From: Bacillota bacterium
GTDB lineage: Bacteria > Bacillota > Clostridia > Peptostreptococcales > Anaerovoracaceae
DNA length: 35,769 nt
Direction of reading: 5' to 3'
Assembly: GCA_022767945.1 (NCBI GenBank)
Contig: JALENF010000045.1
Location: 1 to 35,769, forward strand
Part shown: positions 22,853 to 24,095 of the stretch, piece after piece
Numbering within the stretch: the first letter of the stretch is position 1
How the letters are laid out: every line of letters begins with the position of its first letter
Position numbers and translations under genes: made by a program
The notes under the pieces: generated by a model
The model's database searches: none
The model's input: only the letters and a program-made list of their open reading frames with translations
What the model was told of the DNA's origin: nothing

Positions 22853-23610
22853 CTGTCAACTCTCTCCTTCAGCCACTCAACGCTGTCTCTGCACTCATGG
22901 CTTTCTATAGTAAAGGTCACATCGTGACTGCAGTATTTTTCTGCACAGTCCAGAATGCGTTCCATGTCTAAATATCCGTCTAACAGCTGTCTGTGCTGGT
23001 CATCGGTTCCGTCATTGTTGTGAAGATGAAAATGACCGATACGGTCACCCAGAATCTCAATCCAGCTGTACACATCATATTCCGGCTTTGTCACGGCGTT
23101 GGCATGTCCAACGTCCAGGCAGACCCTGATTCTCGGATCGTCCAGCTCATCTATCAGATCCTTCATCATCAGAGGCTCATCATCAAAGACGTTCTCAATA
23201 TAGATGTGAAAATTGCCCTTGTCCTTCATGTACTCCCTCCAGAACTCAACGGAACGCTCATGGTGCCACTCCTTAAAGTACATAAGCGGTTCATACCCCG
23301 TGTGAACCACCATTCTGTCCACGCCCATGGCCTGACATGCCTCATAGGCTTCATTGAGTCTGTCCATTCCCAGCTTCACGAATCTGCGATCGATGCCTGC
23401 AGGAATGATTTCGGTGAATGGTCCGTGCATTATAACATCTGCGGCCCCTGAGCCAGCAACCTCCTGCTTCATTCGTTCTACAGTGGCATCAAAACTTTCA
23501 GGGTTCAGAGACTCTGAAATACATATGTCATTCAATTCTATATTTACGCCATATTTCTTAGCCGCCTCAACAGCATTGTTCGAAAAAGTGGCGATGTATA
23601 CTCTGCTCAT
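22849..23610 (-). CDS. TIM-barrel protein (sugar phosphate isomerase/epimerase, AP endonuclease family 2 fold)
   Basis: 253 aa; VVHTGYEP, IYIENVFDDEPLM, CLDVGHANAV, IGHFHLHNNDGTDDQH motifs; ATGA overlap with pcrA. Confidence 0.82.
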   Translation of the reverse strand: MSRVYIATFSNNAVEAAKKYGVNIELNDICISESLNPESFDATVERMKQEVAGSGAADVIMHGPFTEIIPAGIDRRFVKLGMDRLNEAYEACQAMGVDRMVVHTGYEPLMYFKEWHHERSVEFWREYMKDKGNFHIYIENVFDDEPLMMKDLIDELDDPRIRVCLDVGHANAVTKPEYDVYSWIEILGDRIGHFHLHNNDGTDDQHRQLLDGYLDMERILDCAEKYCSHDVTFTIESHECRDSVEWLKERVDR

Positions 23611-23697
23611 AATTAACCTCTTTGGTCGGTGCTTCTGTGGTACTTTTCAGTTCAAAAAATTCGTTTTCTGCCTATTTTGATAGAATCCACTCTTATA

Positions 23698-23730
23698 ATA
23701 AAAAGGAGGCAGGGTGACTAGGCCTGCCTC
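23698..23730 (-). terminator. Second intrinsic terminator downstream of the cobalamin riboswitch
   Basis: Minus strand GAGGCAGG-N9-CCTGCCTC followed by CTTTTTATT. Confidence 0.85.
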
Positions 23731-23775
23731 TAAAAAGAATGAAAAGCTTGGTCATCCGTTCCCGTTCCTATGTTC

Positions 23776-23806
23776 AAAAAAAGGACTGTGGATAACCCCA
23801 CAGCCC
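23776..23806 (-). terminator. First intrinsic terminator downstream of the cobalamin riboswitch
   Basis: Minus strand GGGCTGTGG-ggttat-CCACAGTCC (one G-T pair) followed by TTTTTTT. Confidence 0.9.
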
Positions 23807-23857
23807 GTATTTGCTGTTCTTATTCTCCACCTCCGGTTCCTCGCCGGCGTGTAAGTA

Positions 23858-24046
23858 TTCTATGCAGGTCTCCTGGCTCAGACATCATCGCACATCCTCC
23901 CTTCCCGAGTCTCCTCAGTGGATATGAAAATGTGCTCCTTCCTTACAGTGGCGGGACCGCGCAGGACTCACACCTGCTTCCCTCTTAGCCATCCGGACGA
24001 TTATCGGTAGGTAACACGTTATCATCGATCCGGACGGAACATAGAA
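23858..24046 (-). promoter_or_regulatory. Cobalamin (B12) riboswitch aptamer
   Basis: Minus strand contains GGGAAGCAGGTGTGAGTCCTGCGCGGTCCCGCCACTGTAA and terminal AGCCAGGAGACCTGC; closing P1 TTCTATG / CATAGAA. Confidence 0.96.
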
Positions 24047-24066
24047 CAGTATTTCATTACACCATC

Positions 24067-24095
24067 ATTATACTCAAATTTCTTCTCTTAATCAA
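24067..24095 (-). promoter_or_regulatory. Dedicated promoter for the cobalamin riboswitch RNA
   Basis: Minus strand TTGATT-17 nt-TATAAT immediately upstream of the aptamer and just after the cbiC stop. Confidence 0.8.

Follow-up and report, generated by a model that had tools for sequence, protein, structure and literature searches.

To our knowledge, nearly all known corrinoid riboswitches switch genes off in the presence of B12, which raises the question of how bacteria avoid useless B12-dependent enzymes when B12 is absent. In Listeria and Enterococcus, this is achieved by an RNA that soaks up a protein or by a long antisense transcript, with EutX of Enterococcus following the same logic as Rli55 of Listeria. 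The latter is a stand-alone noncoding RNA (ncRNA) headed by a B12 riboswitch and truncated by B12, the long form of which prevents the expression of B12 enzymes without their cofactor (PMC8079631). A B12 riboswitch also controls the Listeria ncRNA AspocR/Rli39, which has a truncated form of about 230 nt with B12 and can act in trans, while RNA derived from the Listeria SAM riboswitches SreA and SreB pairs in trans and blocks the translation of an mRNA (PMC8079631). Furthermore, antisense-acting riboswitches are found at the 3' ends of operons, e.g., the SAM riboswitch of the C. acetobutylicum ubiG operon (PMC9943018).

Riboswitches of the ubiG type run antisense into the genes they regulate, whereas the element described here runs in the same direction as the adjacent operon and away from it. 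It lies in a window (the whole stretch of DNA that was analyzed, 35,769 nt) that constitutes the entire contig C23 of an 86%-complete MAG. Its features and their flanking genes are as follows:

24765-24112, minus strand: cbiC, upstream of the promoter
24095-24067, minus strand: sigma-70 promoter TTGATT-17-TATAAT, 10 of 12 consensus matches, with a predicted transcription start near 24060
24054-23846, minus strand: cobalamin riboswitch aptamer (RF00174; cmscan, 106.3 bits, E 7e-26, model positions 1-189)
23847-23833, minus strand: P13-like hairpin CCGGCGAGGAACCGG, conserved in all relatives
23806-23776, minus strand: terminator 1 (GGGCTGTGG-loop-CCACAGTCC-T7), the riboswitch expression platform and end of a predicted short RNA of about 284 nt
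23764-23700, minus strand: match to the tail covariance model (69.8 bits, E 7.6e-15; the window sequence is part of the training set)
23757-23750, minus strand: GGATGACC, a complement of the terminator 1 sequence GGTTATCC (23797-23790), located in its loop and 3' arm
23747-23732, minus strand: proposed seed GCUUUUCAUUCUUUU(U), which in the window reads GCTTTTCATTCTTTTT, complementary to AAAAGAAUGAAAAGC at aminomutase start codons
23730-23700, minus strand: hairpin C (GAGGCAGG-CCUAGUCAC-CCUGCCUC) plus CUUUUU, i.e., terminator 2 and the end of a predicted long RNA of about 360 nt
23610-22849, minus strand: PF01261 TIM-barrel gene, starting about 90 nt past the second terminator

Elsewhere, the window holds a small bacterial SRP RNA (17530-17431, minus strand, 72.5 bits) that adjoins a dnaX-like gene.

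An initial annotation of this DNA had described a complete cobalamin aptamer with a promoter in front of it and a strong terminator behind it, and all three were recovered at the coordinates given above. The aptamer is a full-length member of RF00174 by covariance-model score (106.3 bits in cmscan vs a curated cut-off of 31.5 bits), and corrinoid binding is predicted. In an oriented alignment of relatives, a near-consensus TTGACT-17-TATAAT stands at the same position as the promoter of the window; since a raw scan yielded promoter-like sites at no more than the chance level (three found vs 3.7 expected), it is this positional conservation that supports the promoter. The loop of terminator 1 reads GGTTAT, and a CAGC at 23816-23813 is able to pair with its 5' arm. 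The 86%-complete MAG yielded no further cobalamin riboswitch; relatives from the genus have three to 11 of them per genome. Contig C4 of Emergencia timonensis (G012; L005, L016, L027) contains seven cobalamin riboswitches within about 43 kb, and similar clusters occur in close Emergencia relatives.

The RNA had initially been taken to end at 23776, at a length of about 285 nt. The unit continues, however, into a conserved block (23758-23700) that had been missed and that consists of GGATGACC, the 15-mer GCUUUUCAUUCUUUU, and a second terminator, the hairpin of which shows compensatory changes. When positions 24160-23690 were used as a blastn query, the alignment of the element extended to the second terminator in roughly a dozen genomes, mostly of the same genus and one from another. 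The oriented alignment of relatives comprised the promoter, the aptamer, CGGCGGTGAACCG, CAGC(A/G)AATACGGGCTGTGG...CCACAG, and then the tail with an invariant CTTTTCATTCTTTT. An assembly error at this junction, which the initial annotation had considered, is ruled out by the collinearity of promoter, riboswitch, and tail in a dozen other genomes.

The tail pattern was present in 31 of 352 Anaerovoracaceae genomes, exactly once in each, while its reversed control gave no match. A covariance model built from these 31 matches recognized the tail in 35 of the 352 genomes, which belong to five genera, with a gap in scores from 43.8 to 28.8 bits, and elsewhere in the order it gave no strong match. 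Because the model was trained on pattern matches, part of the 14-mer's invariance is built in, and the unconditioned evidence for it is the oriented alignment. Scanning 85,462 species gave 27 stretches, and the named ones include Emergencia timonensis, Hornefia butyriciproducens, Aminicella lysinilytica, Eubacterium minutum, and Eubacterium infirmum; Emergencia and Hornefia were placed in Anaerovoracaceae by look-up, while the family of the other named taxa was taken from the genome grouping. The B12-box motif was found about 190 to 265 nt upstream of the tail in all 30 loci inspected.

Among 30 sequences, both partners had changed in four pairs of hairpin C without any pair being broken, and in one genome (G225, L393) its stem was entirely rewritten while the GUCA of its 9-nt loop (CCTAGTCAC) stayed the same. 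This invariance of GUCA even on a different stem raises the question of a protein or RNA contact. A run of at least four T within 26 nt after the hairpin was present in 23 of the 30, the other seven being without a near U-run; two of these seven (G155, G156), as well as G349 from outside the 30, have a separate GC-rich terminator slightly past hairpin C. A search of positions 23600-23850 against Rfam assigned the tail to no family, the one match, to a miRNA, being due to chance. As to coding potential, a short ORF in the tail (ATG ACC AAG CTT...) was considered and rejected, as relatives read GGATAACC or have no ATG, and as the distance between block and hairpin changes by lengths that are not multiples of three, so that the tail is noncoding.

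With respect to its neighbors, the element had been placed at the 3' end of a B12 operon and described as having no evident ORF. The former holds for the genome of the window only, since in relatives the upstream neighbor differs, and this also opposes the suggestion that the element is a regulated 3' end of the cbi transcript, the upstream genes in relatives being unrelated. As for the latter, the same-strand PF01261 ORF at 23610-22849 had been overlooked; in the window it is followed by a PcrA/UvrD helicase gene. Most Emergencia species and two g12 genomes have this TIM-barrel gene next after the RNA, with its start about 25 to 100 nt past hairpin C and often no obvious room for a promoter. 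It might therefore be supposed that the element is an ordinary cis leader whose riboswitch controls the TIM-barrel gene, possibly of the CbiR kind acting in cobamide remodelling, with the tandem terminators forming a two-step attenuator. The product gave a weak match to the CbiR model NF041277, with 42.6 bits against a cut-off of 105, and 44.3 bits with the model of deoxyribonuclease IV. Outside these genomes the arrangement breaks down: (i) in G006, G016, G158, and the g84 genomes, the whole RNA is kept with pcrA directly downstream; (ii) in g45, the gene downstream resembles that of NADH:flavin oxidoreductase (named by eye); (iii) in genus g5, various genes follow at a distance of 60 to 600 nt; (iv) in G225, rplQ comes next and is convergent, as read directly in the reverse frame; and (v) in the Hornefia-group genomes G149, G150, and G152, the TIM-barrel gene is located upstream of the riboswitch. 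Moreover, the tail would have no role in such a leader, though it is among the most conserved parts. The initial annotation had named a conserved B12-regulated ORF directly downstream in relatives as a finding that would speak against its reading, and this applies in part within Emergencia, where most species have the TIM-barrel gene next, but not across the other genera. A CbiR leader as the sole explanation was thus dropped, since other genera keep the RNA without an adjoining TIM-barrel gene, and we regard the cis leader as unlikely.

The element has its own promoter and terminator and no fixed downstream gene, and since the downstream gene is not conserved, we consider it highly probable that it is a stand-alone, riboswitch-controlled ncRNA gene rather than a plain leader. 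Its architecture, its conservation, the compensatory changes in the stem, and the lack of a fixed gene behind it can be read directly in the aligned DNA, as can the complementarity described below. The TIM-barrel gene may also be expressed by read-through, or the RNA may have a second role in cis in Emergencia; being repeatedly linked to a B12 RNA, this gene possibly encodes a cobamide-related enzyme outside the described CbiR clade.

In repressing corrinoid riboswitches, P13 and the terminator are compatible with each other, while in the one known activating corrinoid riboswitch they share bases (Procknow et al., PMC10653944). In the window, P13 (23847-23833) and terminator 1 (23806-23776) are 26 nt apart and share no bases, so the known activating layout is excluded and the repressing one is favored. 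B12 would thus lead to the short RNA and its absence to the long one. Equilibrium folding always formed terminator 1, and the candidate antiterminator pairing CAGC:GCTG was unstable at equilibrium. In the read-through RNA, terminator 1 has a second sequence complementary to its loop and 3' arm; this sequence reads GGATRACC in Emergencia and is CTGTGG-like (vs CCACAG) in most others. The pairing of block 23757-23750 with 23797-23790 is possibly a second switch that locks the open form of the read-through RNA.

Reverse-complemented, the 15-mer becomes AAAAGAATGAAAAGC, a sequence that resembles a ribosome site followed by a start codon. In 22 carriers of the RNA, it had 54 sites with at most one mismatch besides the element itself vs 17 for the reversed 15-mer, which is an imperfect control because ATGAAAA is common as a start. 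Twelve of the 40 sites examined (out of these 54) were on plausible start codons, and they belonged to oraS (six), kamD (five), and a gene for a DUF4430 protein (one). The identities of the aminomutase genes were confirmed with Pfam (OAM_alpha, 183 bits, for oraS; Lys-AminoMut_A, 398 bits, for kamD). kamD encodes the alpha subunit of lysine 5,6-aminomutase and oraS the small subunit of ornithine 4,5-aminomutase, both of which are described as AdoCbl/PLP-dependent aminomutases of lysine and ornithine fermentation (PMC3958899). The remaining one-mismatch start match (L225, G004:C59) is that of an exported protein with a borderline DUF4430 assignment, on a contig with two cobalamin riboswitches.

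Gene starts were sampled in three genomes from three genera (16 to 20 stretches of up to 20 kb each per genome) and scored for pairing with the 15-mer using RNAduplex. kamD ranked first among 375, 335, and 289 starts, respectively, and oraS ranked third, seventh, and second among the same starts, the oraS start of G128 having been added by hand after it was missed by the simple gene caller. With the longer block instead of the 15-mer, kamD was second in G107. Among 300 shuffled 15-mers, the result for kamD was equalled by four, one, and two in the respective genomes and by one in all three together, while none of the 300 did as well for kamD and oraS jointly in the three genomes; shuffling is here a composition control and not a clean test, as kamD and oraS were picked after their start-codon matches were known. 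By this control, the seed is complementary to these mRNA starts beyond chance, with energies that do not differ in genomes lacking the RNA. In E. timonensis, the other genes of the kamD and oraS operons had mostly near-average pairing scores, the exception being a kdd-like (3,5-diaminohexanoate dehydrogenase-like, named by eye) start, ATGAAAAAAG, which pairs with the second UUUUUUCAU motif. At L385:8230 (G012:C8), there is a second gene with a 3,5-diaminohexanoate-dehydrogenase-like start (MKKGCPYGTHRVISPKG), which lies beside a near-identical paralogue at L385:6967; it is the start of this second gene, ATGAAAAAAG, that pairs with the second UUUUUUCAU motif of the RNA. The TIM-barrel gene was rejected as a seed target, its energies being average (-5 to -9) except in one genome. 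A good seed match at the start codon of a TIM-barrel gene (MKKRDIFLATF...) was seen at G155:C11:2143-2156 (L445), on a contig that carries the RNA, in a genome without oraS and kamD.

These findings led us to hypothesize that the element is a stand-alone ncRNA gene composed of its own promoter, a cobalamin riboswitch, a regulated terminator 1, and an output domain made up of the invariant seed and the terminator hairpin. With corrinoid bound, transcription would stop at terminator 1 and yield an RNA of about 284 nt without the seed, while under corrinoid scarcity the polymerase would read through to give an RNA of about 360 nt that carries the seed GCUUUUCAUUCUUUU. The seed would then pair with the Shine-Dalgarno and start-codon region of kamD and oraS and block their translation, so that the usual OFF switch would be inverted and synthesis of the B12-dependent enzymes would be restricted to conditions in which their cofactor is available. 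What we infer here is which way the switch works, that the two RNAs exist and have these lengths, and that translation is repressed. We lean moderately toward the full proposal, i.e., a riboswitch-gated RNA whose seed blocks kamD and oraS, and find direct repression of the two genes by the seed only a little likelier than its opposite; the odds are even that the RNA is a ligand-gated, trans-acting antisense sRNA that works as a one-RNA inverter and silences the mRNAs of AdoCbl aminomutases needing the cofactor. Of the options in the initial annotation, a B12-controlled small RNA is therefore the best supported, but its informative part lies beyond the terminator at which that annotation had ended the RNA.

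The targets call for qualification. Duplex energies did not differ between carriers and non-carriers of the RNA for either kamD or oraS (Mann-Whitney, p 0.45 and 0.29, respectively), which argues that the target sites did not visibly evolve for the RNA. A purine-rich ribosome site followed by an MKR or MKS start explains much of the match to both genes, and the RNA may have adapted to a constant sequence that was already there, or the complementarity may be coincidental. In addition, the distant homology of kamD and oraS means that they do not count as two fully independent matches. Within the family, oraS read AGAATG, a full Watson-Crick match, in 28 of 28 genes from carriers vs three of 22 from non-carriers (Fisher, p 5e-11 by genome and 5e-4 by genus in a hand tally), a contrast confounded by phylogeny. 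In genus g5, oraS and/or kamD was present in eight of 11 carriers vs none of six non-carriers (p 0.009, phylogeny uncorrected). Three carriers (G016, G155, and G156) kept the RNA with neither kamD nor oraS present, and a search for substitute targets in carriers without both aminomutases found nothing convincing. In the MAG of the window, kamD lies on contig C171, and its duplex has a single bulged base and an energy of -14.6 kcal/mol, which is stronger than the best duplex among the 26 window genes checked (-10.7 kcal/mol), while oraS was not found in this 86%-complete assembly.

The equal strength of the complementarity in relatives without the RNA and the three carriers without both targets would also fit a conserved RNA of unrelated function, whose U-rich sequence matches purine-rich ribosome sites by coincidence. 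Such an RNA accounts poorly for the joint ranks, which none of the 300 composition-preserving shuffles reproduced, and for the fact that the matched genes encode B12-dependent enzymes, in agreement with the sensor; we judge it slightly less probable than the cis leader. Less probable again, by a narrow margin, is a riboswitch-gated protein sponge like Rli55 or EutX, in which the U-rich block and the GUCA-loop hairpin would sequester an RNA-binding protein. The plan of the element (riboswitch, terminator, output domain) is like that of Rli55 (PMC8079631), and the GUCA loop is kept even on a rewritten stem, but no Rfam family matched the tail, no ANTAR-type hexaloop pair (A1, G4) was seen among the loops of terminator 1 and hairpin C, read directly, or in the general Rfam search, and a sponge would leave the shuffle-resistant complementarity of the invariant block to the start codons of two B12 enzymes unexplained. 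Finally, a relic left after the loss of a regulated gene, as the initial annotation had also suggested, would fit the lack of a single gene that is always downstream, but it is hardly credible given that, in five genera, an invariant block and compensatory changes are kept past the terminator.

The proposed antisense RNA also differs in mechanism from the precedents named initially, Rli55/EutX and AspocR, as its tail has no Rfam match, no ANTAR-type hairpins were recognized in it, and the RNA is not antisense to an adjacent regulator gene. Whereas Rli55 and EutX trap the EutV protein through ANTAR hairpins, its output would be direct pairing with mRNA starts; whereas AspocR is a 1.4-kb antisense RNA to the neighboring pocR, it would use a short dedicated seed against distant targets; and whereas the terminated short form acts in the case of SreA and SreB, the former of which is in addition linked to a fixed operon in cis, the seed would here be borne by the read-through form. 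The novelty that we propose is that read-through adds the seed itself, aimed at the mRNA starts of cofactor-dependent enzymes. Searches of the literature, which covered open-access papers, returned no report of this RNA.

Riboswitches regarded as orphans for want of an ORF can thus be sRNA genes, for which a searchable pattern is provided here. If the proposal is true, a short RNA seeded by read-through and directed straight to enzyme mRNAs would be a simpler general solution to the problem of B12-dependent enzymes without B12, and a one-RNA inverter would couple cofactor supply to cofactor-dependent amino-acid catabolism, so that in gut and oral Anaerovoracaceae the fermentation of lysine and ornithine would be tied to the B12 supply.
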